From assembly GCF_937951745.1 (NCBI RefSeq), contig NZ_CALFBQ010000092.1:1-38940 (forward strand): a stretch of 38,940 nt of DNA, in the 5' to 3' direction. A program made the translations under genes and the position numbers. Within the stretch, counting starts at the first letter, position 1. Each line of letters begins with the position of its first letter. The DNA comes from an uncultured Chloroflexus sp. GTDB taxonomy: Bacteria; Chloroflexota; Chloroflexia; Chloroflexales; Chloroflexaceae. The notes under the pieces are model-generated. The model worked only from the letters and a program-made list of their open reading frames with translations. It did not search any database and was not told the origin of the DNA. Below, in pieces: positions 1-29,547 of the stretch.

Positions 1-2781
1 AGCGGCTATGTCTTCACCGCCGCCGATCAGGGCAGTGATAATGCGGTTGACTCGGATGCTAACCCCACGAACGGTCGTACCGCGAATTTCACGCTCACGA
101 GTGGTCAGACCGACACCACGTGGGACGCGGGTGCGTATCGGCCAGCTAGCGTCGGCAACTTCGTCTGGCGCGATGTGAACGGCGACGGCCTGCAAGATAC
201 TGGCGAACCTGCTATCAGCGGCGTGACCGTCACCCTGACCGGGGCCGGGCCGGATGGTGAGTTCGGCACGGCGGATGACATCAGCCGTACAACTGTGACC
301 GACAGTAACGGAGAATACCTCTTCACCGGACTACCGCCGGGCAGCTACCGACTGAGCTTCAGCGACATCCCGGCTGGATTGACCTTCAGCCCGGCCAATC
401 AAGGCAGTGACGACGCTGTTGATAGTGACGTAGAGACGAATGGTGAAACGACGGTCTTCACCCTTGTCAGTGGTCAGAGCGATCTCACCCGCGATGCCGG
501 ACTCTACCCGCTGCTCAGTCTGGGTAATCTGGTCTGGGAAGATTCCAACAACAACGGTGTCTTTGATAGTAGCGAGTCGGGCGCAGGCGGTGTGCGAGTC
601 CGCCTCTACCGTGACAGCAACGGCAATGGCATATGGGATGCCGCTGATCAGTTGGTTGGTTTAACCATCACCGACAGCAACGGTAACTACCTCTTTACCG
701 GCTTGCCACAAGGCAACTACTTCGTGGTCTTACCGGGCGCTCAATTCGCGGCTGATAGCCCGTGGTCAGGGTATCGCAGCAGTACCGGTGCGCTCTCGCT
801 TACCCTCGGGCCATTCGAGCCGGGTGTTGATGCGAACACCGATCGTGACGACGACGACAACGGCACCCAGCAGGTCCTCGATATCGTCAGTAGCCTGATC
901 GAACTGCGACCCGACAGCGAGCCGGATGTAGCCGTCGATGGCGATGACCGCAACAGCAACCTTACCATCGACTTCGGTATCTTCCGGCCAGCCGTAGTAG
1001 GCGATTTCGTCTGGAGCGATCGCAATGGGAATGGCCGGCAAGACCCTGATGAGCTAGGAGTGGCCAACGTGCGGGTTACCCTCTACTACGTGGGACCTGA
1101 CGGCATTGCCGGCACTTCCGACGATGTGGAGGTAGCGACGCAGTTCACCGATAGTGATGGCTTCTACGAGTTTACCAATCTACTGCCGGGCGACTACTAT
1201 CTGGTCTTCAGCGAATTGCCGGTGGGGGCGCGCTTCACCGCCGCCGATCAAGGCGCTAATGAAACACTCGACTCAGACGCCGATCCGGTCACCGGCGTGA
1301 CCGCCGTCTTCGCGCTCACGAGCGGGACGATCACCTTGGATTGGGACGCTGGTCTCATCTTGCCGGCCAGCGTGGGCGACCGAGTGTGGGAAGACCGCAA
1401 CGGCAATGGTGTGCAAGACGCAGGCGAGCCGGGTATTGAGGGTGTAACCGTGCGCCTAACCGGTTTCGATATTGACGGAAATACCGTTGATCGGAGCACG
1501 ACCACCGATAGCAACGGCAACTACCGCTTCGATAACCTGCAACCGGGTGAGTACACAATTACAATCACACCACCGGCTGGCTACGTCATCATCACCGCCA
1601 ACCGTGGCAGTGATACCGGTGCCGACTCAGATGTCGATCCGTCGAGCGGAGCAACCGACCGCTTCATCATCGGCGGTGGCGACATTGATCTGACGTGGGA
1701 TGCTGGTCTGTACCGACCAGCCATTGTGGGTGATCGAGTCTGGCTGGACGTGGACGGCAACGGTGTCCAAGACGCGGGTGAGCAAGGCGTTGCTGGGGTG
1801 ACGGTGCGATTGACCGGCACCACCGGCACAGGCGAGACAATAACGCGCACTGTGACGACCGACGACAACGGTAACTATCGGTTCGACGACTTACCGCCGG
1901 GGTCGTACACTATCACCGTCACACCACCAGCCGGCTATGCCATCACCGTGGCTAACCGCAGTGGTGATGACAGTGCTGACTCGGATATTGATCCAAACAG
2001 CGGAACGACCGCCACGTTCACCGTCACCAGCGGAACAATTGATCTGACGTGGGATGCCGGCCTATACGTACCGGCGACGCTTGGCAATCGTGTCTGGCAT
2101 GACCGCAACCAGAACGGCATTGCCGAGGCAGGTGAAGAAGGGGTGAGCGGAGTAACTGTGAGTCTCTACCGTGCCGACGGCACGCTGGTTGGCACGGCAG
2201 TGACCGGCGATGATGGCAGCTACCTCTTCACCAACTTGCCGCCGGGGAGCTACTATCTCGAGTTTAGCCTACCGAATGGCTGGGCATTCAGTCCGCAAGG
2301 TCAGGGTGGCGATAGCGGGCGTGACAGCGATGTTGACCCGAACACGCAACGCACGCAGGTCTTCACACTCACGAGCGGCCAAACCGACCTCGGTTGGTGG
2401 GCGGGTATCCACCAGCCGGCCCCGCCAACGGCCATCACCCTGCTCAGCTTCACCGCCGAGCGGCAGAGCAACGGTGTGCTGTTGCGCTGGGTGACGGGCA
2501 GCGAACGGGATACGCTCGGCTTCGTGATCCTGCGCAGCGCGAGCGGCAACCGAGCGGATGCGGTGCCGATCGTGGCGACGCTGATACCAGCGCAGGGCAG
2601 CGCAGGCAGCGGCGCGAGCTACCAGTGGTTTGATCGCACGGCTCAGCCAAACGTGAGTTATCACTACTGGCTGGTCGAGATCGAGACAGGTGGCGGGCGT
2701 AACGAATTCGCGTTGCATAGCCCGGCGGTACAAGCGGTACAATTCGTCTATCGGGTGCTGGTGCCAATCATTCAGCGCTAG
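1..2781 (+). CDS. Secreted protein with SdrD_B-like repeats (5' end outside window)
   Basis: The reading frame is open from the first base, so the gene begins upstream and only its last 926 codons are present. It carries a partial module followed by six SdrD_B/Cna-B-like modules, each opening with a [VL]G[ND]xVWxDxNxxG signature at about bases 151, 520, 997, 1372, 1726 and 2080. Acidic loops such as DVNGDG suggest calcium binding. Each module also has a GxYxFxxLPPGxY core and a DSD(A/V)xP segment. After the last module (about base 2420) comes a fibronectin-like tail (LLRWVTGSERDTLGF), and the protein ends VLVPIIQR. No LPXTG, PEP-CTERM or membrane anchor is visible. Its likely role is an extracellular stalk or adhesin. 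The closing octapeptide matches the ends of the two giant proteins at 20483-29438. The function is inferred from the repeat family; the specific partner is unknown. Confidence 0.85.
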   Translation, partial: SGYVFTAADQGSDNAVDSDANPTNGRTANFTLTSGQTDTTWDAGAYRPASVGNFVWRDVNGDGLQDTGEPAISGVTVTLTGAGPDGEFGTADDISRTTVTDSNGEYLFTGLPPGSYRLSFSDIPAGLTFSPANQGSDDAVDSDVETNGETTVFTLVSGQSDLTRDAGLYPLLSLGNLVWEDSNNNGVFDSSESGAGGVRVRLYRDSNGNGIWDAADQLVGLTITDSNGNYLFTGLPQGNYFVVLPGAQFAADSPWSGYRSSTGALSLTLGPFEPGVDANTDRDDDDNGTQQVLDIVSSLIELRPDSEPDVAVDGDDRNSNLTIDFGIFRPAVVGDFVWSDRNGNGRQDPDELGVANVRVTLYYVGPDGIAGTSDDVEVATQFTDSDGFYEFTNLLPGDYYLVFSELPVGARFTAADQGANETLDSDADPVTGVTAVFALTSGTITLDWDAGLILPASVGDRVWEDRNGNGVQDAGEPGIEGVTVRLTGFDIDGNTVDRSTTTDSNGNYRFDNLQPGEYTITITPPAGYVIITANRGSDTGADSDVDPSSGATDRFIIGGGDIDLTWDAGLYRPAIVGDRVWLDVDGNGVQDAGEQGVAGVTVRLTGTTGTGETITRTVTTDDNGNYRFDDLPPGSYTITVTPPAGYAITVANRSGDDSADSDIDPNSGTTATFTVTSGTIDLTWDAGLYVPATLGNRVWHDRNQNGIAEAGEEGVSGVTVSLYRADGTLVGTAVTGDDGSYLFTNLPPGSYYLEFSLPNGWAFSPQGQGGDSGRDSDVDPNTQRTQVFTLTSGQTDLGWWAGIHQPAPPTAITLLSFTAERQSNGVLLRWVTGSERDTLGFVILRSASGNRADAVPIVATLIPAQGSAGSGASYQWFDRTAQPNVSYHYWLVEIETGGGRNEFALHSPAVQAVQFVYRVLVPIIQR

Positions 2782-3810: not shown

Positions 3811-5307
3811 ATGGAGCAAAATACTGTGTTAATCGTTGATGACGATGAGCAGATGCGTGCGCTGCTCATCGAAACAATAGCCCCATTCAACCTCCGTCTG
3901 CTAACTGCGCAGCGCGGCGATCAGGCGTTGCAATTGGCCAGACAGTATCACCCTGATCTGATCCTACTCGACGTCATGATACCGGATATTGACGGCTTTG
4001 AAGTATGCCGATTGTTGCGCGATGATCCGATGTTAGCCCAGATTCCGATTGTTATGATCACCGCCTTGAATGATCGCGAAGCAAAAATACGCGGATTCGA
4101 GGTTGGTGCCGATGAGTTTATTACCAAACCGTTTGATCTCGGTGAATTGCAAGCGCGGGTTAACACCTTATTGCGCTTGAATCGATACCGCCGGCTCTTG
4201 CAAGAGCAAGCACGCGTGAATGCCGAACGAGCGCGGTTTGAGTGGGTGGTCGAGACGTCGGATAACGCATACCTTATTCTTGACCAGCAAGATCGGATCA
4301 CCTACGCCAATGCCCGCGCCCGTGCATATCTTGGTTTGACGGCTGATGAACAGCCGAGCAAGCCCTTCTGCGAGCTAGCTGCGCAGCGGTACCAGTTGGC
4401 GCCATCCGAGGCATGGGAACAGTGGCCGGTGCCGACTGATCTCCAGCGCTTCTTAGTGCATCCTGAAACGCTGCATAGTTCTGAACAATGGCTCAAAGTT
4501 GAGCCGGCGCTCATCCATCCGGCTGACGATCAAATTGTCGTGATCATCCGTGATGTGACGCAACAAATCACGGTCCAACGCGAGATGTGGACGTTTCATA
4601 CCGCGATCTCGCATAAACTGCGCACACCACTGGTCAGCATTATTGGTGGTTTGAACATCTTGCACGATAATATGGATCAGCTCGATCGTTCGATTGCGCG
4701 GAACATTGCGGCTATTGCCCTCAGCGGCGCGCACCGGCTGCAAAGCGAAATTGATGATATTTTGCTGTATGTGCGCAGTCCCGGTGATGCGCACTACCTT
4801 GATACATGCACGGTGTTTGAACTACCTGCCATGATCGCTGCGATCAGCCAAGAATTGGGGATGCAGACCGTCAGTCTCAACCTTGATCCCGCGCTCGATG
4901 CGCGGCGGTTGCGAATTTCGCGGCGTAGCCTAGAAACGATATTGCGGGAATTGTGCGAAAATGCCAAGAAATTTCATCCCCAACGCAATCCGGCAGTGAT
5001 GGTGCGCGTTGATACTGATCTGGTTCGTGATCAGGTGCGGTTGCTAGTTTGCGATGATGGGATACATCTGCCGCCAGAACAACTGCGCAAGATTTGGCAG
5101 CCGTACTATCAGGCCGAGCGCAGCTTTACCGGGCAGGTTGAAGGGATGGGGCTGGGGTTGGCGCAGGTGGCGCGGATCGTATTGGCGGTTGGCGGCAGCT
5201 ACCAGATACATAATCGCTCTGATCGGCCCGGAATCTGTGTCGAAATCCGCATTCCTTTTGCGGAAGAACAGGCGCGTGGCGTCGTGATCGGTGCAGGTGA
5301 ACGTTAA
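3811..5307 (+). CDS. Response regulator-PAS-histidine kinase hybrid
   Basis: The protein has 498 residues and no membrane segments, so it should be cytoplasmic. An N-terminal receiver domain (about 5-122) has the acidic trio VDDDE, the phospho-acceptor D54 in LILLDVMIPD, and the conserved K of ITKPFD. A PAS domain (about 145-255) follows. The kinase core has an H-box with H268 (ISHKLRTP), an N-box (ELCENAKKF, near 380), a G1 box (CDDGIHLPPE) and a G2 box (GMGLGLAQ, near 445). The receiver-first order suggests that an upstream kinase phosphorylates D54 to control its own kinase activity. AGGA at 3800-3803 supports the start. No cognate partner lies next to it. The family assignment is secure; the signal is unknown. 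Confidence 0.9.
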   Translation: MEQNTVLIVDDDEQMRALLIETIAPFNLRLLTAQRGDQALQLARQYHPDLILLDVMIPDIDGFEVCRLLRDDPMLAQIPIVMITALNDREAKIRGFEVGADEFITKPFDLGELQARVNTLLRLNRYRRLLQEQARVNAERARFEWVVETSDNAYLILDQQDRITYANARARAYLGLTADEQPSKPFCELAAQRYQLAPSEAWEQWPVPTDLQRFLVHPETLHSSEQWLKVEPALIHPADDQIVVIIRDVTQQITVQREMWTFHTAISHKLRTPLVSIIGGLNILHDNMDQLDRSIARNIAAIALSGAHRLQSEIDDILLYVRSPGDAHYLDTCTVFELPAMIAAISQELGMQTVSLNLDPALDARRLRISRRSLETILRELCENAKKFHPQRNPAVMVRVDTDLVRDQVRLLVCDDGIHLPPEQLRKIWQPYYQAERSFTGQVEGMGLGLAQVARIVLAVGGSYQIHNRSDRPGICVEIRIPFAEEQARGVVIGAGER

Positions 5308-5372
5308 GTTGACGCTTATCAGCTCTTCTGCTACTCTGTGAAGCCGGTTAAGCGCAGAGAAGGAGCCAGAGC

Positions 5373-6227
5373 TTGCGGATTGCAATCACTGGAGCATATG
5401 GGCAATTAGGGCAGGCTGTGATGGCCGCGCTCGCCGATCAGCACGATCTAGCGCCGTTGGGACACGGCCAGCTTGAATTGGCTGATCCGGCAACTGCTGA
5501 TCAGATTGCGGCCACCGGCGCCGAGGTGGTGATTCACGCTGCCGCCTATACGAATGTGGATGGGTGCGCGCGCGATCCATTGTTGGCCTATCGGGTCAAT
5601 GGCTTGGGCACGCGCTATGTGGCCCTTGGCTGTCGCCGGATCAATGCAGCGCTGGTCTATATCAGCACCAACGAGGTATTTGCCGGCGATGGCCGGCGGC
5701 CGTATCTTGAGGATGATCCCACCGGCCCGATCAATCCGTATGGCCAGAGCAAGCTGGCCGGTGAGCAAGCCGTGCGTGAGCTATGGCCGCGCCATTTTAT
5801 CGTGCGAGTGGCATGGCTGTTTGGCGGTGAACGCAATTTTGTCCGCACGGTGTTGCGGTTAGCGGCTAACCCGCCGGCGGGCGGGTTGCGGATGGTGGCT
5901 GACGAGATCGGCAGTCCCACTTACGCGCCTGATGTGGCAGCGGGTTTGGCGCAATTGATCACGACTGATTACTACGGCACCTATCACTTTGTTAACGATG
6001 GCATCTGTTCACGCTACGAGTTTGCGGCTGAAATCTTGCGCCGCGCCGGTATTGATACCCCGCTTCACCCTATTCGCTTGCGCGATTTTCAACGCGATAG
6101 CACACCGCCGCCCTATACCCCGCTGGCCAACGTGGCCGGTGCAGCGTTGGGAATTACCTTCCGTTCGTGGCAAGAGGCGCTTGACGCCTATCTTGCCCGT
6201 CTGCGCCGCGAAGTGTCATTACCATGA
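5373..6227 (+). CDS. rmlD: dTDP-4-dehydrorhamnose reductase (RmlD)
   Basis: RmlD performs the last NAD(P)H-dependent step in making dTDP-L-rhamnose. The 284-residue protein has the Rossmann start ITGAYGQLGQ (GxxGxxG), the AAYTNVDGCA segment, a YISTNEVF core strand and the catalytic YGQSK (YxxxK). The late VADEIGSPTY motif is typical of RmlD. The start is TTG, with AAGGAG seven bases upstream. Its stop overlaps the next gene in ATGA. Sitting before two glycosyltransferases, it probably feeds rhamnose or a related deoxysugar to surface polysaccharide. No rmlA, B or C is in the window. Confidence 0.88.
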   Translation: MRIAITGAYGQLGQAVMAALADQHDLAPLGHGQLELADPATADQIAATGAEVVIHAAAYTNVDGCARDPLLAYRVNGLGTRYVALGCRRINAALVYISTNEVFAGDGRRPYLEDDPTGPINPYGQSKLAGEQAVRELWPRHFIVRVAWLFGGERNFVRTVLRLAANPPAGGLRMVADEIGSPTYAPDVAAGLAQLITTDYYGTYHFVNDGICSRYEFAAEILRRAGIDTPLHPIRLRDFQRDSTPPPYTPLANVAGAALGITFRSWQEALDAYLARLRREVSLP

Positions 6228-7186
6228 TTGATGTGATTGTACCCAATTACAATGGCAGCGCTTTGCTGCCGGTGTGTCTTGACTCGTTGCGCGCGCAGAC
6301 TCGGCGTGATTTTGTGGTAACAGTGGTTGATGACGCAAGTACCGACGACTCGGTAGCGTTGGTACAGGCACGCTACCCGGAAGTGCGGGTGTTGGCGTTG
6401 GCGCAGAACCGCGGGTTCGCGGCAGCGGTGAATGCAGCGATAGCGGCGACCGAGCGCCCTTTTGTGGTCTTGCTTAACAATGATACCGAAGCTGACCCTG
6501 AGTGGTTAGAGGCGCTGATCGGCGCGCTTGAACGCTGGCCGCAGTTTGCCTTTGCCGCCGCGAAGCTGCGTCTGTTCGACCGGCGCGAGGTGTTGCATTC
6601 GGCAGGAGATTTCTATCGGTTGAATGGCGAGCCGGGCAATCGCGGCGTGTGGGAAGTCGATCGTGGCCAATACGATGCTTACACCGAGGTGTTCGGTCCA
6701 TGCGCCGGCGCAGCTGCATATCGGCGCAGCGCACTAGAACTGCTGGCCGAAGATGGCAAAGTCTTTGACGAAGAACTAGTAATGTACTGTGAGGATGTCG
6801 ATCTCAACTTGCGCGCGCGGCGCAAAGGTCTGCGTACTATTTTTGTCCCAACCGCAGTCGTCTACCACCGGCTGAGCGCCAGCGGCGGTGGCGTTTTGGC
6901 TAGTTATTATTGCGGGCGCAATTTTCCGCTCGTATGGGTGAAAAATATGCCGTCGCCGCTGGTGCGCCGCTATTGGCCGGCGCTAGTGATCTCGCAGGTG
7001 CGTTTTGCCCTGCATAGCTTGTTGCATGTGCGAGAACCAGCCGCACGGGCGCGGCTGCGTGGCCAATTGGCTGGTTGGCGCGAGTTGCCGCGCTTTCTAT
7101 CACGCCGTTCCGCATTGCCAGAAGAAACAGCGCCGGTCGTCGCCGCATTGGCGCTCGGCCAGCCACCTACGCAGAGTCCATCATGA
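6224..7186 (+). CDS. Family 2 glycosyltransferase (rhamnosyltransferase-like)
   Basis: This 320-residue GT-A fold enzyme begins MIDVIVPNYNGS, the nucleotide-binding strand of GT2 enzymes, followed by VVDDASTDDS. The metal-binding motif is in LLNNDTEADPEW, and an ED acceptor motif follows in YCEDVDLNLR. The layout matches rhamnosyltransferase-like GT2 proteins that act on cell-surface glycans. There is no convincing membrane anchor. It overlaps both neighbours by four bases (ATGA), so translation is coupled to rmlD and to the next glycosyltransferase. Donor and acceptor are inferred from context only. Confidence 0.85.
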   Translation: MIDVIVPNYNGSALLPVCLDSLRAQTRRDFVVTVVDDASTDDSVALVQARYPEVRVLALAQNRGFAAAVNAAIAATERPFVVLLNNDTEADPEWLEALIGALERWPQFAFAAAKLRLFDRREVLHSAGDFYRLNGEPGNRGVWEVDRGQYDAYTEVFGPCAGAAAYRRSALELLAEDGKVFDEELVMYCEDVDLNLRARRKGLRTIFVPTAVVYHRLSASGGGVLASYYCGRNFPLVWVKNMPSPLVRRYWPALVISQVRFALHSLLHVREPAARARLRGQLAGWRELPRFLSRRSALPEETAPVVAALALGQPPTQSPS

Positions 7187-7962
7187 CCAACGAACCATTC
7201 CTATCTATTGTGATCCCAGCGTACAACGAAGAGCGGCGCTTGCCGGCAACGCTCGCCGCAATTATGGCCTTTCTCGCCGCCGAGCCATACGCCAGCGAAG
7301 TGATCGTTGTCGATGATGGCAGCGAGGACCGCACCGCCGAGATTGCCGCTGCCTTCCCCGCTGTCACCGTGTTGCGCTGCGATCATCGCGGCAAAGGGTT
7401 TGCGGTGCGCGCGGGGGCGCTTGCAGCGCGCGGATCGATCATCTTGCTGTGTGATGCTGATTTAGCGGTGCCGATCGAGGAATGGCCGCGATTGCGCGCC
7501 GCGATCGAGGCCGGCTATCCGATTGCGATTGGGTCGCGTGAGGGAGTTGGTGCGACCCGTGAGGGCGAACCGTGGTACCGGCATGTGATGGGACGGGTGT
7601 TCAATTGGATCATTCGCCTCGTGGCTCTGCAAGGAATTAACGATACCCAGTGCGGCTTCAAGGCGTTGCGCCGTGATGTGGCCCGCGATCTCTTCCGCCG
7701 GGTGCGTATGTATGGCGATGATGCGCCAGTTGTGCGCGGCGCCGCTGTGACCGCGTATGATGTCGAATTGCTCTTCCTTGCCCAACGCCGTGGCTACCCA
7801 ATCGCCGAAATTCCGGTGACGTGGCGCTACGGTGCGGAAACGAAAGTTAATCCGCTGCGCGACTCGTGGCGCAACTTGCGTGATGTGCTCCGGGTGCGCT
7901 GGAATGATCTCCGTGGCCAGTATGACGTCACATCTGCCGCGGTAGAGGAGGTTGCTCCCTGA
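7183..7962 (+). CDS. Family 2 glycosyltransferase (dolichyl-phosphate glucosyltransferase-like)
   Basis: The protein has 259 residues. The ATG overlapping the previous stop (ATGA) is chosen over an in-frame start 108 bases upstream inside that gene. Motifs are SIVIPAYNEERRLP, VVDDGSEDRT, the metal-binding DADLAVP, IGSREGVGAT, and the late NDTQCGFKALRRD that marks polyprenyl-phosphate glycosyltransferases of the DPG/ALG5 type. It lacks the C-terminal membrane segments seen in some relatives. It may load a sugar onto a lipid carrier for the surface glycan made with the two preceding enzymes. Confidence 0.85.
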   Translation: MTNEPFLSIVIPAYNEERRLPATLAAIMAFLAAEPYASEVIVVDDGSEDRTAEIAAAFPAVTVLRCDHRGKGFAVRAGALAARGSIILLCDADLAVPIEEWPRLRAAIEAGYPIAIGSREGVGATREGEPWYRHVMGRVFNWIIRLVALQGINDTQCGFKALRRDVARDLFRRVRMYGDDAPVVRGAAVTAYDVELLFLAQRRGYPIAEIPVTWRYGAETKVNPLRDSWRNLRDVLRVRWNDLRGQYDVTSAAVEEVAP

Positions 7963-20482: not shown

Positions 20483-23400
20483 TTACCGGCTAACAACCGG
20501 AATAAAGACCGTTTCGCCAAAGATGTCTGCCCGATAGAGATAGATCATCGAGAGCCGGATACTACTGCGTTGGCTTGGGTCGCGCCGCGAGGTGGCCGTC
20601 AAGATCAAATCGTGGCGCAATGCAAATGGTTGGATCGTTGGTAGATTGACTGTGACGTTGATCCCAACATCGCTCGCGCCGCTGTTGAGCGTCACGGCGT
20701 TTGGCGTGATTGTGACGCCGAACTTGCTATCTAATCCGCTGACAGTGAGATCAAAGGTGTCGGTGTCGTTGCCAAGGTTTTCCAGCACAATCCTGCTAAA
20801 AGTCATCTGGTTTGTTGCCGCCGGAATGCCGCGCAGTTGGTCGCTGCTCAGCAAGACGCCGGTAACCAATCCAATCCGCACACTATTAAAGATGGTGCTT
20901 TTTACGTTAGTATCGGTCTGCGAAGTAGCAGTAACCCGGATGCTGCTTAGGTTGAGGCCGGCAGCTAGCCCGCCCGGCAGATTCAGCAGCACGGTGATTT
21001 CGCGGCTCTCGCCGGGGCCAAGATTGACTTCATTGGGGAAGACACGCACGTCATGTCCATCGCCTTGGATAGCGGTGATGGTGTAGGTGTCGGCGCTAAA
21101 GCCGATATTCCGTACTGTGTGGGTGATGACCGTCGTAGCGTTCGGCAATGCAATCACGTTCCGCGCCGGTTCGAGCAATACGTCGCGCAGCGCGCCGACT
21201 TGGACGATATTCTCGGCACTGGCTAACGATAATGCGCCACCGGTAGCCCGCGCTTCCACCGTGATCGAGTTACTCGTGCCGGGCGGGCTGCTAGCTGGGA
21301 TAGTTACTGTCACCGTGACCACGGTTGTACTGCCCGGTGCCAAGACGGCAGTGGTCGCTGGTGTGATAGGAGGGGTTGGCCAGCTTGGATCGGCGCTGCG
21401 CGCGATCAAGTCATAAGCGATCGTTGATGAGCCGTTGTTGCGCAGGGTATGCGTAAAGACGACCGTTCCCCCCGGTACGCTGTTAGCAGTTGTGCCTGCC
21501 GAGAGCTCAGCCCCGTCAATACTGTTTACCGTAACGCTATCAACCACCTCGGCGCTGACCGCCGGGTTGCCTTGCGATGTAGCGCGGGTGGTAGCTGTTG
21601 CTATCGTACCAGCGGCGATGCCGGTCGGAACCGTAATCTGCACCGTTACAGTGATGGTAGTGTTACGGGCGAGGACCGGAGTCGTTACTGGATCGGTTGT
21701 TGCCGTCCAACCGCTGGGCAATCCATTGAGGCTAAGGGTGAACCGATCGGGTGCGTTGCCGGTGTTGGTTAAGGTATGCGTAAAGGTGACGATCGCCCCC
21801 GGATCAGCATTGACATTGAGCGGGGTGGGCGCGAAGCTCAGATTGCGGATCGTCGTCACCGTCACCGTGGCGGTCGTACTAGCCGTGCTGTCAGGCGCAG
21901 GCGGGGTTTGGCCGCCATTGCGGGCAATCGCGCGTATTTCGACCGGCGTATCGCCGCCATCAGCAGTTGCCGGCACACTTACTTGCAGGGCATAGGTGCA
22001 GGTACTGCCATCAGCCGGTACTGGCGAGGGGCATGTGGTGCTACTGCCCACAAGGTTCCAGCCGGCAGGCAAGGGTTGCTCGAAATCAAACGGCGCCGGT
22101 GCGTTGCCGCCGTTACGCACGGTGACAGTGATGGTGGCCGTCGCGCCGGGATCAACTGGGTTGGGCGCTACCAGCGGGCTACCCACAAAGACCGGTGTAC
22201 CGCCGCCGATGACTTGTGCCGTGCCGGTAGCGGTCTGGTTGGCCGGCGGGTTAGTGCCGCCGTTGACACTGGCTTGGACGATAAAGTTGTAGAAGCCGAC
22301 CGGCTCGCTGGCGCCAGCGGTAACGGTGAGGGTGATTGGGCGCGCTTGCCCGGCGGCAAGGGTGAAGCTAGTGGCCGGAATTGCGGCAAACGTCAGGCTA
22401 GAGGCAGGCGTCGTGTTGCTTGGCGGGGTGATAATAAAGGTATCAGTGAAGTTGCCAGTATTGGTCAACACATAGCTGAATTCAACCGAGCTGGCCGGTG
22501 TCAATTGGCGGGTGGTTGGGGCAAGAGCAGTAAACTCGAAGCTGCGCACCACCGGCACGCGCACGGTATCAGTAGTGGCCGGATCGCTCTGCTCGCTAAA
22601 GACTTGTGTGCCCTGCTGACTGGTCGCGCGCACGCGGAACGAGAACGGGTAGTCGCCAGCGAGTAATGAGCTACTAGAGGGCGTATTCACCACAATGGTG
22701 AGGGTCGTGCTCGCGCCGGCGGCCAGCGTCGTGCTGCCGAACGTCGCCGAAGTGATGTTCCAACCCGCCGGCGGCGTGCCGCTGAAGATCGGCAAGCCGC
22801 TGCTGCCGTCAGGCCGGATAATGCTCAGATTACCGGTGAGTTGGCCGGTATTGGTGATGGTATGGGTAAAGGTAATAGTGTTACCGGTGCGCTCGATAAC
22901 TTGGCCGGGTGAGACGACCGGCTGGGCCGGAATGATCGTCACCGCTTGCGCAGCGGTGGTCAAGGTCACGCTATTTGAGACCGTCTGATCGCTACGAGCC
23001 GTCACTGTAGTGGTGTCGGTGTCGCCGGGGCTAGCAGTGAGCGGCACCGCCACGCCAATGACAATCTGTGTGCTACCAACCGGCGGCACCTCTACTAAGG
23101 CCGGCCCACTCGTCCAGCCGCGATTGCTATCGAGTGTCAGGCTATAAGTGCGCGTCACCGAGGCGGTATGGCTCAAAGTTAGGGTGTAGGTGGCTGTGCT
23201 ACCAAGGCTGACCGAACGGCTGGTACCGCCGGTAACGGTGAGCGTTGCGGTTGGCGTGGCGCAAGCGTCGGTGGCATTGACATCGAGCGCGTTTGAGAAA
23301 GGCGAGCTATTGCCGGTGGTAGGATTGTGGACGGTCGCCGTGATGAATCCCAGACAACCGGTTATGTTGGCGCTGAAGTTCCCGCCGGCAGTGGTGGTGA

Positions 23401-25639
23401 CACTGGTCAAGAAGACCGGCCCTTCGCGATCACGGTCGGTCACGCTCGCACTGGCAGTAAAGATTTCCACCACACAATTTGCACCGCAGCCGGTCGTGCC
23501 GGTAACAATTGGCGAACCAGCAGTAATTGGATTAAAGCTTGGTGCGGTGAGACTACCATTAGCGTTGCTGCCAAGGCTAATCCCGTCACCGTCGTTGTTT
23601 TGGGTTGTGTTGCGCGAGAGTAACACGCCAGAGATATTAGCGGCGACGAAGATGCCATGACCAATGCCAAGTCGTCCATTGCGCACCAGCCGATTGCCAA
23701 CCAGTTGATTATTGCCGCTATTGACAGTAATACCGTGGGTGGCGTTGAAGGCGGAAGTATTGCTTTGGCCGGCGAAAGCGATCAGGTTATTTTCAATCCG
23801 ATTATTGCTGCCACTGTTGAGCAGAATGCCATCTTTCCGAGTGGTCGTACCGCTAGCTGGTGTTTCACTACTCGAAGCGCGTACCCCAATGCGGTTGCCG
23901 ATGATAAGATTATTGCTCGCATTGTTAGCTAGATTGATACCGACATCAACCCCGCCGATCAGGTTATCGCGCACGGTCGTATTACTTGCGTTACTAATCC
24001 GTATACCTCGACTATCAGCCACGACCGAGCTAGCAAGTTTATCGCTACCATCAGCGCGAACGCCAAGATAGTTGCCCTGCACGGTGTTACTGTTGGCGGT
24101 GCATGTTGCGCATGGCTGGATAAGAACAGCAGCGCCTGATCCGGTTGTAGCAAAATCACCAGCAGCGATCACATTGCGATTGGCGGGGTTAGGTCCACCG
24201 ATCAGTGAATTACTGCCATTTTCGATCCACACACTCGCATCACCAGTACCGTAGCCGACGGTGGTTTGGTTAATGGTAGTCTTGGATGTTTGCGTGCCGG
24301 TTGGATCAACACCAAGATAGTTGCCGCGTACCACAGTATTTCCTGAGCGAATGCGAATGGCATTGGTACGTGCGCCGGCAATCACGTTGCCCGGCCCAAT
24401 GGTGACGCCTACACTATTGCGCCCGACGAAAATACCTTCACCACCAGTTGTTTGATTGATTGTACCATTGCCTACTGGAAACGGGTTGCCACTCGGATCG
24501 AGGGCAACGCCGATATAGTTGCCGACGATCACCGTCGGGCCGGTAGCGAATTGCGTGTCTTCAATCACTATCCCGCCGTTAGTATTGCCGCCGATATAGT
24601 TGCGTCCGCCCACCGGATCAATTGGTTCGCCAATTTCGGTATTAATGGCACCATACGTTGCGCCACCAGCAATCAAAATACCGATTCGGTTTGCGATAAC
24701 CGTTCCGGTTGCATTGACGCCGATCCAGTTGCCGACAATCCGATTGTTTCGAGGAATAGAAGGGGCATCGGCAGTCGTAGCGTTACTTAACAGCGTGATA
24801 CCGGCGGCATTGGGTCCGGTATAACCGCCGATCAGATTACCGCTGATCAGCGTGTCACGTGCATAGCTTTCGAGTGAAATGCCGCCGAGATTGCCCGATG
24901 AGGGGGTAACATCTAAGCGAGCATCACCGCTGATGGTGGTACCAATGTAGTTACCAAGAATCTGATTACCGCTGAGTACTGTATTGCTCGACACATTGAC
25001 AACACCAATATCAGCAATCTCGTTGCCGCTGATCACATTGCGATCCGCCGGATCGCCGGTACCGATCCGGTTGTTGCTCGCACCATCATTAAGCAGAATA
25101 CCGTAACCGGTGTTTGGCTCCGGTGAGCCGTTGAGGTGACCGATCCAGTTGTTGGCAATGAGGTTATTTTGAGCATTATTCCGCACATAAATGCCCGATC
25201 CGCCCGCCGAGACAAGAGAGGTACCACGGCTAAAGCGAATAATCACCAGTCCGCGAATCACATTGTTGTTGGAAGCGATGACCAAGCCATGGGCCGGAAT
25301 AAGGGATGTACTTGCGGTCAATTGTTCACCGCTAATAATAACGCTATGCCCATTCCCGCCGTCAATCGTGGTATTGCCTTCGGTGAGTGGCGGCAGTCCG
25401 GTGTTTTGTACATAAATCGTTCCGCTGACGCTAAAGGTGATGGTGTCAGGCACACCATTGCTATTCGCCACATTGATCGCCTCGCGCAGCGTACAACCAC
25501 CCGGGTTAGACGTGCAAGCGCCATCGTCCGTGTCGGCCAGTGAATTAACGACGAATGAAGCAGCCAGTGCCGGTTTGGTTGTCGGCAGCAGGCTCACAAT
25601 CAGAATGATGAGGAGGGCAAGGTGCAAATGACGGTGCAT
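20483..25639 (-). CDS. Giant secreted beta-helix protein with Ig-like repeats
   Basis: The protein has 1718 residues. It has a signal peptide (about 1-26, HLALLIILIVSLLPTTKPALA), then CTLREAINVANS, a mark of Pmp/CSLREA-type surface proteins. A long right-handed beta-helix follows to about residue 770, with repeated GNxIG and NNxIxxN motifs (for example GNWIGVNATGT and GNYLGVDPTGTQ). About eight Ig-like NEW3/DUF11-style domains then run to the end, each with a FTHTLTNTGN-like strand. It ends VFIPVVSR with no LPXTG or hydrophobic anchor. It is likely exported and surface-bound. It follows the paralogue at 25650 by 10 bases, with AGGAG spanning that gene's stop codon, so the two form one transcript. 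Confidence 0.87.
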   Translation of the reverse strand: MHRHLHLALLIILIVSLLPTTKPALAASFVVNSLADTDDGACTSNPGGCTLREAINVANSNGVPDTITFSVSGTIYVQNTGLPPLTEGNTTIDGGNGHSVIISGEQLTASTSLIPAHGLVIASNNNVIRGLVIIRFSRGTSLVSAGGSGIYVRNNAQNNLIANNWIGHLNGSPEPNTGYGILLNDGASNNRIGTGDPADRNVISGNEIADIGVVNVSSNTVLSGNQILGNYIGTTISGDARLDVTPSSGNLGGISLESYARDTLISGNLIGGYTGPNAAGITLLSNATTADAPSIPRNNRIVGNWIGVNATGTVIANRIGILIAGGATYGAINTEIGEPIDPVGGRNYIGGNTNGGIVIEDTQFATGPTVIVGNYIGVALDPSGNPFPVGNGTINQTTGGEGIFVGRNSVGVTIGPGNVIAGARTNAIRIRSGNTVVRGNYLGVDPTGTQTSKTTINQTTVGYGTGDASVWIENGSNSLIGGPNPANRNVIAAGDFATTGSGAAVLIQPCATCTANSNTVQGNYLGVRADGSDKLASSVVADSRGIRISNASNTTVRDNLIGGVDVGINLANNASNNLIIGNRIGVRASSSETPASGTTTRKDGILLNSGSNNRIENNLIAFAGQSNTSAFNATHGITVNSGNNQLVGNRLVRNGRLGIGHGIFVAANISGVLLSRNTTQNNDGDGISLGSNANGSLTAPSFNPITAGSPIVTGTTGCGANCVVEIFTASASVTDRDREGPVFLTSVTTTAGGNFSANITGCLGFITATVHNPTTGNSSPFSNALDVNATDACATPTATLTVTGGTSRSVSLGSTATYTLTLSHTASVTRTYSLTLDSNRGWTSGPALVEVPPVGSTQIVIGVAVPLTASPGDTDTTTVTARSDQTVSNSVTLTTAAQAVTIIPAQPVVSPGQVIERTGNTITFTHTITNTGQLTGNLSIIRPDGSSGLPIFSGTPPAGWNITSATFGSTTLAAGASTTLTIVVNTPSSSSLLAGDYPFSFRVRATSQQGTQVFSEQSDPATTDTVRVPVVRSFEFTALAPTTRQLTPASSVEFSYVLTNTGNFTDTFIITPPSNTTPASSLTFAAIPATSFTLAAGQARPITLTVTAGASEPVGFYNFIVQASVNGGTNPPANQTATGTAQVIGGGTPVFVGSPLVAPNPVDPGATATITVTVRNGGNAPAPFDFEQPLPAGWNLVGSSTTCPSPVPADGSTCTYALQVSVPATADGGDTPVEIRAIARNGGQTPPAPDSTASTTATVTVTTIRNLSFAPTPLNVNADPGAIVTFTHTLTNTGNAPDRFTLSLNGLPSGWTATTDPVTTPVLARNTTITVTVQITVPTGIAAGTIATATTRATSQGNPAVSAEVVDSVTVNSIDGAELSAGTTANSVPGGTVVFTHTLRNNGSSTIAYDLIARSADPSWPTPPITPATTAVLAPGSTTVVTVTVTIPASSPPGTSNSITVEARATGGALSLASAENIVQVGALRDVLLEPARNVIALPNATTVITHTVRNIGFSADTYTITAIQGDGHDVRVFPNEVNLGPGESREITVLLNLPGGLAAGLNLSSIRVTATSQTDTNVKSTIFNSVRIGLVTGVLLSSDQLRGIPAATNQMTFSRIVLENLGNDTDTFDLTVSGLDSKFGVTITPNAVTLNSGASDVGINVTVNLPTIQPFALRHDLILTATSRRDPSQRSSIRLSMIYLYRADIFGETVFIPVVSR

Positions 25640-25649
25640 AGCGCCGCTC

Positions 25650-28600
25650 CTAGCGGGTCACAAGCGGTATCCAGACCGCCGGGACTTGTACGCCTGACGA
25701 ATCGCGCACAATGGCTACATCTTGCACCTCGGCGCCGCTGAGCGGTTCGGTCGAACCGGGGATCGAGGCCCAGATGCGTAGCGTCTCGCTCGTGCCGGGT
25801 AATATGAACTCACTGATCCGTACCCTTACTCGTAGCACAATTTGGTTGATCCTCCCGCTACCCGTAGTATTATCCAGCGTTACCTTGTTATCAACAATAG
25901 AAACACCGCTGGTGGCTGACTCAAACGCGATTAAGGTACTGCCACGACTGGCAGCGAAATTGAGCTGGAAGGTCGCCCGTCCGTTGCTTGTGTTGCGCAG
26001 CGTATGCAGGAACACGACTTCACGCCCAGCCTGCACATCCTGCTCTTGATTGCTGCGCAATTCGGCGGCGTGGCGTAAGCCAACGCTGGTGATGTTCGTC
26101 ATTGTAATCGCCTGTGTGCTAAAGCCACGCGGCGTCGCGGTGATAACGGTCGTAGCCCGTACCGGATTACCGCTCGCGTCGGTCGTCTGCGCACCGGCTG
26201 GCACGGTGATCTGTACGGCAATTTCGGCACTGACTCCCGGCGCTAATGTTACCGTTGGTGTCAGCACCGTCGTGTTGTACGTGTCGAGACCGATCAGGTC
26301 GGCAGTGGTGGCGCTCACATCAACCGGCACGGTCACATTGCCATTATTGGTGATCTGGTGGCGGTAGATGTAGGTGTCAGCCGGCAAAACGGTTGCGGCG
26401 CCATTGGCCGGATTGGTCACGAGTACCGGCAAGGCTTCAACCGCAGTGCGCAGAGTTTGGGTGATCGGATTAAGCACCGGCCCCGTCAACGAGACGGTGG
26501 TAGTATCCGTAATTGGCACCTGCACAGATGGATGGCTTCCGGTAGGAAGGGTCAGCGTAACGGTCAGCAATTGGCTCGCGCCGGGCAACAGCGTGAAACG
26601 TTCGCTCGGCGCAACGGTCGCCGTCCAGCCGCTCAGCGTGCCGGTGGCCGTGAAGCGGATTCGATTGATGCCAAGTGTGCCATGGTTTTCCAACCGCAGC
26701 CGGTACGTGACACTGCTGCTGGGTGCAGCGCTCTGTTCGATGGGATCAACGGGGATGAGGCGTAGATCGATTGTAGGTGTAAAGACACGGAACACCGAGG
26801 TATTGCCGAACAGATCGGTTGCAGTAAAGAGCAGTTGGCGGTAGTTCTGGGGTGGGGTGCTGAGCGTGGCATTAAAGACGCCGGTGCCGTTGGCGCTCGC
26901 GCTAGTTAGTGGTTGCCAACCCTGCCCATCAGGCGTCGCTAGACTCGTATCATCGCCATAAATATGAATTGTGCAGCCGCTGCAGGCTGATACCGGATCG
27001 AGATCCTCTTCGCGTTCGGCAGTACTGGCAAAGACATTGCCGCTCACCAGCCCATCTTGGAAGACTTGGAAATTAAACGGCGGATCGATGCTGTGGTTCG
27101 GGAGCGTAAGGTTTTGATCCGGATCAGGCGGCGTTCCGCTGTACAACGTCGCGTTGGCCAGCTCAATCCCGCCGAGGGCGTTAGCCGCCATCTGATTTTG
27201 GCTAATCGTCACCCGGCGCGCCGTATCAGTGACCAGCACGGCGTAGCCGCCATTAGCGCGCAACCGGTTGCTGTTGATGACCACGCCGAGGCTACTGCCG
27301 CCGACTTGAATACCATCGCCGCTGTTTTGCTCGATCACATTGCTATCGTTGATCGTCACATTGCGAACATCGGTTAAGTGTATGCCATCGTCAGCGTTCG
27401 CGCGTATCTGATTACCGCTCAGCGTTGCAGTGGTAACGTTCGTGAAGCGGATTCCATTAGCCGCGTTTAGCCACACCAGATTACCGCTCAGGGTGGCGGT
27501 TGTTACGTTTGTCAGCGCAATACCGACTCCGGCAGGACGGGCCAGCGGATCGGGGCCGCCAGCCGGATCGGCTACCCAGCCAATCTGATTCTGCTGGATC
27601 GCGATCGACTGGGCATTGCTTAGCTCAATCCCGGCGGTGCTGCCGTTGCCGCCAATCGTATTGTTGGCAATAGTGACTTGTAAGGCCTCGATGACGCGGA
27701 TCGCTGGGCCAGCGTTGGCTGCGGCAACGCTATACGCATCGCCGGTCGCGTCGCGGCGCAATCCTAGGGTATTAGCGCGCACGGTAATGCTCAAGCTGTT
27801 TGTGCCGCTAATATCAATCCCGGGGCCATTGGCAGCAGCGATGATATTGCCGTTCGTGCTGCCGATCGTGACATTTTGGCTATCGATCACAGCAATGCCG
27901 GCGTCGGCACTGCTGAGCGCCGTGCGGCCATCGGCGCTAAGGCCAATGATGTTACCATCGAGGGTCGCGCTGCCAACGTTGCGCAGCCGGACATCGTAGC
28001 CGGTATTGGCGGCAATTCTCGAATTGGTCATCGTCACCTGCGCCGTGCCGTTGAACTCAACGCCGCCGCTGTTGGGGAAGGTCGCTGTGCCAGTAGGGAG
28101 CGCCGCAACAAAAGCGTTCGTGATCGTAACGCTGCTCACGCCGCCGCCAACCCAGATCCCCGGCCCGCCATTGCTGCCAATGCGTACATCAGCCGTGGCA
28201 CTACCGATAGCAACATTACCGGCGCTCTCGCTGATCCGGATTCCGCCTTGGCCGTTTGGCCGCGGGCTAGTAGAGACACGGCTCAAACCAATGACGGTAT
28301 AGCCATTAATCATGGTGTTAGCTGGCGCTGCGCCGCCGCCGCTCCGCACGTGAATGCCATATCCGCTATTGCCGCTGATCACCAACGGGAAAGTGGCACT
28401 AGAACTGCCGATCACCGTCGCTTGCACTCCGTCTTCGATCCGGATGCCGTCGCCGCCATTGCCGAAGGCTGCTTCGCTGTCGAGATTGATCCCGATCAAG
28501 TTGCTGCTGATCGTTGTGGTGTAGGTTTGCGAACCGCTAATGAAGATTCCGCTGAGACCGTTGGCACCGATCATATTGCGTTCTGCATTGGTTGCGCCGC

Positions 28601-29438
28601 CGATCACATTTAACTCAGCGCGTCCGTTTGGATCGCTGGTCGTATCACTCAGAATTTGGATACCATAACCGCCGTTGGGCCGTATGGTAGTGGCAGTGGT
28701 GAAGAGCACGCCGATCCGGTTCGCTCGTATTGTGTTCCGTGAAGCGTTGATGATGACGATCCCGTTGGCAATATTGCCGGCGATAGTATTAGGGGCTGAG
28801 GATTCACCGATCTGATTACCGTGCGCGTTAGTGCCGATCAGCATCACTCCGTTGCGGTTGCGGATAGCTTCTGTCGGTGTCGTGCCATCGAGTTGCAACC
28901 CAAGATAACAATTGCGCACGATATTATTGGCGCTACTGATATAAATACCGCTGCCGCGGTAGCTACCCACGTCGCTGCTCACGCCATAAATTGCTAGGCC
29001 CTCGATAATTGCGCCGCCGCCATTCAACACGAGGCCAGCGTCAGCGCCGTTGGCGTTGATGGCCACCTGCGGCGCACCGGCTAGTACATTGGCGCTGATC
29101 GTGACATTCGCGCGCGTGATCGGCGGCAGCCGTTCACTTAAAGTGATGATGTAGGGGGCGCTCGCGACTGAACCCTCTGTTACGAGATCGAAGTTGATAG
29201 TAATCCGGTTCGTGCCGGGGGTGCCATTTGCTTTGGCAATTGCTTGGCGCAGGCTGCAATTGGTATTGACCAGATCATCAGTACAATGGCTGTTAATGTC
29301 AGTGACAGGATTGTCGGCCAGTGTGTCAACGAAGAATTCATCAACCCCGGCCTGCCCAAAGCTTAAGCGCGGCCAGATTAGAATACTGCTGACAAAAACG
29401 GCAAGAATGACTAACTGCCAATATCTGCGCGCATGCAT
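25650..29438 (-). CDS. Secreted beta-helix protein with Ig-like repeats, paralogue
   Basis: The protein has 1262 residues. ATG at 29438 has AAGGAG five bases upstream and directly opens a signal peptide (MHARRYWQLVILAVFVSS, cut near FGQA). A longer frame back to 29528 lacks a ribosome site. It carries NCSLRQAIAKANG, the same CSLREA-type mark as its neighbour. A right-handed beta-helix of some 780 residues follows, rich in NxIGxN, TISxNxI and ATLSGNxI turns. About four Ig-like domains complete it, and it ends VWIPLVTR. Domain order and ending match the downstream paralogue, indicating duplication. Ligand and function are unknown; an adhesin, sheath or sugar-binding role is possible. Confidence 0.87.
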   Translation of the reverse strand: MHARRYWQLVILAVFVSSILIWPRLSFGQAGVDEFFVDTLADNPVTDINSHCTDDLVNTNCSLRQAIAKANGTPGTNRITINFDLVTEGSVASAPYIITLSERLPPITRANVTISANVLAGAPQVAINANGADAGLVLNGGGAIIEGLAIYGVSSDVGSYRGSGIYISSANNIVRNCYLGLQLDGTTPTEAIRNRNGVMLIGTNAHGNQIGESSAPNTIAGNIANGIVIINASRNTIRANRIGVLFTTATTIRPNGGYGIQILSDTTSDPNGRAELNVIGGATNAERNMIGANGLSGIFISGSQTYTTTISSNLIGINLDSEAAFGNGGDGIRIEDGVQATVIGSSSATFPLVISGNSGYGIHVRSGGGAAPANTMINGYTVIGLSRVSTSPRPNGQGGIRISESAGNVAIGSATADVRIGSNGGPGIWVGGGVSSVTITNAFVAALPTGTATFPNSGGVEFNGTAQVTMTNSRIAANTGYDVRLRNVGSATLDGNIIGLSADGRTALSSADAGIAVIDSQNVTIGSTNGNIIAAANGPGIDISGTNSLSITVRANTLGLRRDATGDAYSVAAANAGPAIRVIEALQVTIANNTIGGNGSTAGIELSNAQSIAIQQNQIGWVADPAGGPDPLARPAGVGIALTNVTTATLSGNLVWLNAANGIRFTNVTTATLSGNQIRANADDGIHLTDVRNVTINDSNVIEQNSGDGIQVGGSSLGVVINSNRLRANGGYAVLVTDTARRVTISQNQMAANALGGIELANATLYSGTPPDPDQNLTLPNHSIDPPFNFQVFQDGLVSGNVFASTAEREEDLDPVSACSGCTIHIYGDDTSLATPDGQGWQPLTSASANGTGVFNATLSTPPQNYRQLLFTATDLFGNTSVFRVFTPTIDLRLIPVDPIEQSAAPSSSVTYRLRLENHGTLGINRIRFTATGTLSGWTATVAPSERFTLLPGASQLLTVTLTLPTGSHPSVQVPITDTTTVSLTGPVLNPITQTLRTAVEALPVLVTNPANGAATVLPADTYIYRHQITNNGNVTVPVDVSATTADLIGLDTYNTTVLTPTVTLAPGVSAEIAVQITVPAGAQTTDASGNPVRATTVITATPRGFSTQAITMTNITSVGLRHAAELRSNQEQDVQAGREVVFLHTLRNTSNGRATFQLNFAASRGSTLIAFESATSGVSIVDNKVTLDNTTGSGRINQIVLRVRVRISEFILPGTSETLRIWASIPGSTEPLSGAEVQDVAIVRDSSGVQVPAVWIPLVTR

Positions 29439-29518
29439 GCGAACTCCTTGCGCCATCGAGCGGCGCGCAGCAAGCGGATTAGCTCCGTGTAGGAACGTTC
29501 TCTTCACCATTGGTTCTG

Positions 29519-29547
29519 ATTGTAACACGGTGTATAAGCTGGCTGAA
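29519..29547 (-). promoter_or_regulatory. Candidate promoter of the surface-protein operon
   Basis: On the minus strand TTCAGC, a 17-bp spacer and TACAAT (-10 at 29524-29519) lie about 80 bases before the preferred start at 29438. The -35 match is weak. Confidence 0.35.

Follow-up and report, generated by a model that had tools for sequence, protein, structure and literature searches.

A divergent form of the YLP box on exported Chloroflexota proteins that may dock them on the cell envelope

Three giant secreted proteins of an uncultured Chloroflexus end in an octapeptide that represents a diverged version of the YLP box, a putative sorting motif already catalogued in NCBIfam. The tag is carried almost only by exported proteins of one part of the Chloroflexota and is rarely combined with a lipobox. 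On balance, the tag probably stays uncut and serves non-lipidated exported proteins as a dock to a receptor in the envelope, although both the binding and the retention are read from sequence patterns.

The window, that is, the whole analysed stretch of 38,940 nucleotides, is an entire contig (C92), one of the 94 that make up a 4.25-Mb genome. A sequence-only reading of it had claimed that three giants end in VLVPIIQR, VFIPVVSR, and VWIPLVTR, and translation confirmed that each of these endings stands directly before its stop codon. The positions given in that reading were right except for a shift of one codon, because the stop codon had been counted in; the corrected coordinates are listed in Table 1. 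The lipobox is absent in both carriers whose signal peptide is visible, while that of the SdrD_B-repeat protein is not visible because the protein is cut by the contig end. The protein at 20483 scored 67.6 bits against choice_anch_T, under the model cut-off of 70. The carrier architectures differ, which ruled out whole-protein homology as the source of the tag, as that reading had argued. Its remark that a C-terminal membrane helix is missing also holds more widely, for 20 tagged proteins of the same genome stop at the motif without a helix there.

Table 1. The three tags of the window and the proteins that carry them
Feature	Position	Strand	Remark	Basis
Tag VLVPIIQR	2755..2778	+	Last 8 residues; stop 2779-2781	Translation and pattern match
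Tag VFIPVVSR	20486..20509	-	Final 8 residues; stop 20483-20485	Translation
Tag VWIPLVTR	25653..25676	-	Final 8 residues; stop 25650-25652	Translation and pattern match
SdrD_B-repeat protein, C-terminal 926 aa, VLVPIIQR carrier	1..2781	+	5' end beyond contig	
1718-aa exported beta-helix/CSLREA/NEW3-repeat protein, type I signal peptide, VFIPVVSR carrier	20483..25639	-		
1292-aa exported beta-helix/NEW3-type protein, VWIPLVTR carrier	25650..29528	-	Likely start 29438; signal peptide begins MHARRYWQLVILAVFVSSILIWP	

Chance as the origin of the tag was ruled out by its adjacency to stop codons, the reading of the ORFs, reversed controls, and a bias in lineage. In the genome of the window, the pattern phi-[FY]-phi-P-phi-phi-x-R occurs at 21 places, 13 of them directly before a stop by comparison of two pattern lists by eye (binomial against 3/64, p = 8e-13). 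A wider DNA pattern, NTN-Pro-NTN-NTN-x-Arg-stop, found 70 places against 54 in the reversed control, with a true stop at 45; one of these was dropped from reading for an internal stop, and of the other 44, 20 lie at the end of ORFs of 95 aa or more and 24 at the end of frames of 90 aa or less. When one start rule was applied to all proteins, a soluble-type signal peptide, called like the lipoboxes below by simple rules of our own and not by SignalP, was found in 12 of the 17 tagged ORFs whose 5' end could be read versus 26 of 196 background ORFs taken from 240 kb picked regardless of the motif (p = 7e-7), and the tag itself was found on none of 205 background ORFs. This single-rule test supersedes a looser comparison, in which the start window was wider for tagged than for background proteins and a signal was called in 14 of the 20 tagged ORFs, 13 of these being free of a later helix; two more are cut by contig ends, and the four without a signal include a subtilase and an alpha-amylase that both appear truncated at the 5' end. 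A further protein of this genome, at 4366-7770 of locus L036, clusters with tagged proteins and ends in RVLMAVIMK, possibly a decayed tag without its proline.

The earlier reading knew of no named family for the ending; in fact, NCBIfam 20.0 holds two models, NF050076 (sort_motif_YLP) and NF053834 (ultrashort_CTERM), both described as "YLP-box putative sorting motif," which shows that curators already know of it. The models span 11 and 10 positions of the same short motif as the tag and carry curated cut-offs of 15 and 10 bits, respectively. Among 23 tail 28-mers, 12 matched NF050076 and 10 matched NF053834 at E up to 10, whereas the three tails of the window, also as 28-mers, matched no NCBIfam family at that threshold; compared with the models, they have F, W, or L in place of Y and V or I in place of L. 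Six of the 28 homologues of the 20483 protein described below were scored as excised 28-mers. The four from other genera (L278, L286, L289, and L290) reached 14.7, 17.7, 17.4, and 16.7 bits with NF050076, three of them above its cut-off, and all four exceeded that of NF053834, while the same-genus orthologues L274 and L275 matched neither model. Because the window tails fall below the models whereas most homologues tried from other genera do not, we conclude that the window shows the catalogued motif in a diverged form. Copies of the tag near the N-terminus are recognized as well: five of seven exceed the NF050076 cut-off (L188, 20.4 bits; L194, 20.7; L206, 17.1; L208, 18.3; L220, 15.9), L248, at 13.7 bits, lies above the cut-off of the second model only, and the L146 copy matches neither. 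A search of one open-licence paper library showed no publication on the YLP-box motif. As far as could be seen, new features are the occurrence of the tag at either end, its diverged forms, the rarity of lipoboxes on its carriers, a genus with lysine-ended tags, and the peptidase C25 neighbourhood.

The lineage bias was first visible in DNA. A search for YLPLVxR followed by a stop, with one genome per species, returned 73 stretches, of which 62 bear Chloroflexota titles (some of the genus names presumably belonging there) and 11 bear others; the matches lie at the end of ORFs of 100 aa or more in 59 of 64 cases in Chloroflexota versus 2 of 11 elsewhere (L110 and L100). Because this pattern fixes G+C-rich codons, A+T-rich genomes are under-counted. 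Of these two, L110 is a Marinobacter frame that looks like an ordinary enzyme. The other, L100, lies on a contig binned as "uncultured Elioraea"; its tail matches Roseiflexus loci, the final 40 residues being the same as in L118, and the contig is probably misbinned. Among solved structures, two triosephosphate isomerases came up, with an internal YLPLVR that is there by chance. In the 19 genomes of family f1, 232 arginine-ended places stood against 13 in the reversed control. Across 301 genomes of the phylum, the excess of such places was seen in f1, in parts of the order, and in few other families, and many families had no arginine-ended places above the control. Thus, the comparison of secreted C-termini with other sites that the earlier reading had proposed, run in part, found the ending concentrated at the C-termini of exported proteins of unrelated architectures in one lineage. 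The consensus across the order is R-[VI]-[FY]-[LVI]-P-L-[VI]-x-R, its proline and last arginine being fixed by the search patterns. In six genomes of one genus of the order (f3/g8), 34 lysine-ended places were counted versus 7 in the reversed control, and 17 arginine-ended places versus 10, while the lysine-ended count of the 19 f1 genomes was 4 versus 4; the f3/g8 lysine counts are of DNA places irrespective of ORF context. Apparently the tag often ends in lysine in this genus, for which arginine as the sole basic end is therefore doubtful.

The carriers, from this genome and from others, include clostripain (C11), subtilase (S8), alpha-amylase, peptidase C25, RCC1 propeller, CAP, Laminin_G_3, M23, DUF1501, DUF11, and beta-helix proteins, and one of them (L107) has a twin-arginine-like start by eye. 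Choice-of-anchor domains, which are named for varying C-terminal anchors, were found among 82 carriers at E up to 0.001: type Q in nine, T in three, and I in one. The C-terminal 500 aa of the 20483 protein allowed us to follow one tail through the order. This region found a match in 40 of 60 genomes, and the best 30 loci were read; apart from the window itself and one protein cut before its end, all 28 readable homologues end in the tag or a close variant (a relaxed pattern with at most 5 residues after the core), even at identities as low as about 30%, while the linker before the tag varies between a stretch of a few residues and a long DP repeat. Within the genus, mean identity is 79% for the last 8 residues and 68% for the preceding 10, as compared with 85 to 89% for the 30 residues before the short linker and 74 to 76% for the rest of the C-terminal 500 aa. 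There the tag is hardly better kept than the whole region, which counts against the docking reading, and since this within-genus difference is small, the argument for modularity rests on the comparison between genera. Judged by that comparison, the tag is a module that sits behind flexible linkers on unrelated folds and persists across genera while the linker changes. Two structure predictions were too poor for use (pLDDT 33 and 46).

That reading had also placed the tag at the very C-terminus, which is right for most copies; a minority lie shortly after the signal peptide or stop a few residues short of the terminus. Among 59 places in ORFs read in four relatives, 36 are exactly C-terminal, 4 are within 9 residues of the end (including L197, a doubtful short ORF), 5 lie between the signal peptide and the domain (L188, L194, L206, L208, and L220), 3 lie inside longer exported-looking proteins (L174, L191, and L200), and 11 look like chance. 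Every listed place was read in G002 and G018 only; of a list of 137 places, those in 70 loci were read. Loci L032-L069 and L161-L230 were chosen because they have the motif, and the stretches from G010 come from places lacking a stop. G002 has 15 listed places, 11 of them in ORFs of at least 60 aa, with 6 exactly C-terminal and 2 within 12 residues of the end; for G018 the corresponding numbers are 28, 24, 14, and 1. In the genome of the window, the motif lies 11 residues before the end in L145, 3 before the end in L148, and shortly behind the signal peptide in the CAP protein L146. L145 and its relative L216, which has Laminin_G_3, share 70% identity over 324 residues and continue for 11 and 9 residues after the motif. 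N-terminal copies occur on CAP proteins (L146, L194, L206, and L244), a DPBB_1 protein (L188), an M66 peptidase (L208), a NuiA-like protein (L220), and a GH5 cellulase-like protein (L248). In the CAP proteins L146, L244, and L206, the motif stands just ahead of the CAP domain behind a linker of about 10 to 55 residues, while in the CAP protein L035 the tag is C-terminal. One kind of domain can thus have the tag at either end. Those sequences establish that the tag can occupy either end of the mature chain. The residues after the motif in L145, L216, and L148, together with the N-terminal copies, weaken a free C-terminal carboxylate as the recognized feature; for the same reason, recognition would need neither a free C-terminus nor cleavage of a C-terminal signal.

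The position of the tag also bears on the idea that it has no sorting role and is an end strand or cap that helps exported beta-rich proteins to fold, assemble, or resist proteases. Many carriers are indeed beta-rich and the motif looks strand-like, but the tag follows Thr/Pro or DP linkers, is found on alpha-amylase, peptidase, and CAP proteins, and comes before or behind the same kind of domain. Since such a cap would also leave the rarity of the tag on lipoproteins unexplained, we consider this explanation unlikely.

That rarity became clear when the anchor types were compared. Under the single start rule, which here too replaces a comparison with unequal start windows, tagged soluble proteins with a called signal (n = 48) comprise 47 of type I and a single lipobox protein, L148, whose tag is the one 3 residues before the end, a count that leaves out 71 tagged proteins cut at the 5' end, 26 without a call, and 1 with a later helix. 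Untagged proteins from unselected stretches of three genomes, chosen by hand at spaced positions and not by a random generator, gave 26 of type I versus 18 with a lipobox (p = 3e-6 against the tagged set); the type I class as a whole contains obvious false positives. Four tagged proteins that fell inside the unselected stretches gave three type I signals and one without a call. The motif core was also seen in two lipobox-called frames, in the N-terminal part of L253, a spurious-looking ORF, and internally in L151. Several clear type I exported proteins have no tag, which, like L148 with its lipobox and tag together, counts against the docking reading. The rarity of lipoboxes on tagged proteins fits an anchor that replaces lipidation. 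A signal for secretion or release, which would lead proteins out of the wall rather than hold them, would equally be restricted to non-lipidated exported proteins. Against it, PMC10608941 places the Chloroflexota among the monoderms, which lack an LPS outer membrane. A signal peptide should then suffice, and the choice-of-anchor domains of the carriers suggest retention; we regard a release signal as quite improbable.

If the tag is a dock, its action could be pictured as follows. The proteins would leave the cell through an ordinary signal peptide, which is cleaved; the hydrophobic, proline-centred peptide with its basic end would then bind a pocket of an envelope component, and a protein that is otherwise soluble would thereby be kept at the surface of the cell, a task that falls to the lipid in lipoproteins and to sortase in LPxTG or LPxTA proteins. 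A likeness, in the way of working only, is the encapsulin cargo-loading peptide, a short hydrophobic-basic tail on a flexible linker that docks its cargo on a pocket; encapsulin cargo is cytoplasmic, whereas the YLP tag is on exported proteins. The suggestion of the sequence-only reading that the tail is a sorting, anchoring, or processing tag seems to stand as to sorting or anchoring, but not as to a fixed position.

Known sorting enzymes were considered as partners. Like the sortase signal (LPxTG/LPxTA, PF04203), the tag is short, C-terminal, and proline-containing, and sits on modular surface proteins, but it has no Thr-Gly or Thr-Ala, no membrane helix, and no basic tail. It might be a degenerate signal of this kind that has lost the helix, since all 31 genomes of the order sampled have a sortase match and LP stands at the same place in many tags. 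However, threonine is not required in the tag, sortase is widespread among tag-free genomes (213 of 301), G169, with an excess of 10 tags, is not among the PF04203 matches, and ordinary LPxT[AG] proteins that end in a helix and a basic tail occur in this lineage too (5 candidates among 1501 proteins, 4 of them convincing by eye). Sortase, with substrates of its own and its frequency in tag-free genomes, was therefore rejected as the partner, and a degenerate sortase signal appears highly improbable. Sortase-substrate-like LPxT[AG] proteins of the Chloroflexales are found at L049 6349-7233, L181 241-1482, L191 2515-3126, and L236 19310-19999. Another likeness is to PEP-CTERM, which with exosortase also marks exported proteins of many architectures at the C-terminus; the tag differs from it in having no helix, and exosortase (PF09721), matched in 25 of the 301 phylum genomes, had no match among the 31 from the order and was rejected as well.

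Peptidase C25 co-occurs with the tag much more closely. It was matched in 30 of the 31 genomes with an arginine-ended tag excess of at least 4 over the control (in G212 by a weak partial match only) versus 25 of 270 others, and outside the order in 6 of 7 tag-excess genomes versus 20 of 263 others, kinship being a confounder of all these counts. Five C25 neighbourhoods were read: L301 (8360-16439), L304 (7471-16000), L306 (8805-12348), L302 (6495-9934), and L305 (6754-11998). The C25 gene adjoins a tagged giant in both L301 and L304, its second neighbour being a DUF11 LPxTA/TM protein in the former and a TM protein in the latter; in L306 it adjoins an LPxTA/TM protein. All five loci combine a DUF11/LPxTA or other TM protein with a C25 that has a tag or tag-like tail, whereas the tagged giant is confined to L301 and L304. 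Such a neighbourhood is possibly a surface apparatus of its own. In G108, the genes for C25 and sortase are immediate neighbours (L303 7478-11628), a pairing seen by coordinates in five other f3/g8 genomes.

This co-occurrence and these neighbourhoods (L301, L304, and L306) would suit a processing signal, in which a gingipain/PorU-like C25 recognizes the tag, cuts near the flanking arginine, and releases the protein or transfers it as PorU does. Type IX secretion offers a likeness, since there, too, a C25 peptidase that carries the signal accompanies it; its C-terminal domain, however, has about 80 residues as compared with the 8 of the tag. Six C25 proteins scored 165 to 290 bits against NCBIfam PorU, far below the cut-off of 420, and SprA was matched in none of 41 genomes, nor in the control genomes. 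Moreover, C25 itself carries the tag or a tag-like tail, so the co-occurrence may mean that it is a mere client; G050 has tags but no C25 match, and N-terminal tags do not fit a C-terminal transfer. We therefore judge processing by C25 to be unlikely. The 25 largest clusters of 954 tag-neighbour proteins contained common and tagged families only and no linked machinery, and the analysis turned up no receptor, which counts against docking. Accordingly, the co-occurrence with a peptidase or transpeptidase that the earlier reading had proposed to look for is borne out for C25, but C25 is itself tagged, and no dedicated enzyme was found.

Returning to the docking reading, a bolder form of it can be put forward tentatively. 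The YLP box might be a cleavage-free, position-tolerant anchor of an undescribed kind, an 8-residue motif at either mature end that, through one dedicated receptor in the Chloroflexia and some Anaerolineae, would hold much of the non-lipidated secretome instead of lipidation, with C25 and its neighbours as part of the apparatus. For the question of how Chloroflexota keep large secreted adhesins and enzymes at the surface, so short a tag offers a direct handle: it helps to predict the surface proteome, and it can be deleted, grafted, or used as a peptide bait for its partner. The smallest carriers observed are tiny exported proteins of about 90 to 115 aa that combine GYTL...GGFW repeats with a YLP tag (L056 2504-2788, L061 2129-2389, L116, and L142), and their small size makes them good candidates for docking tests.
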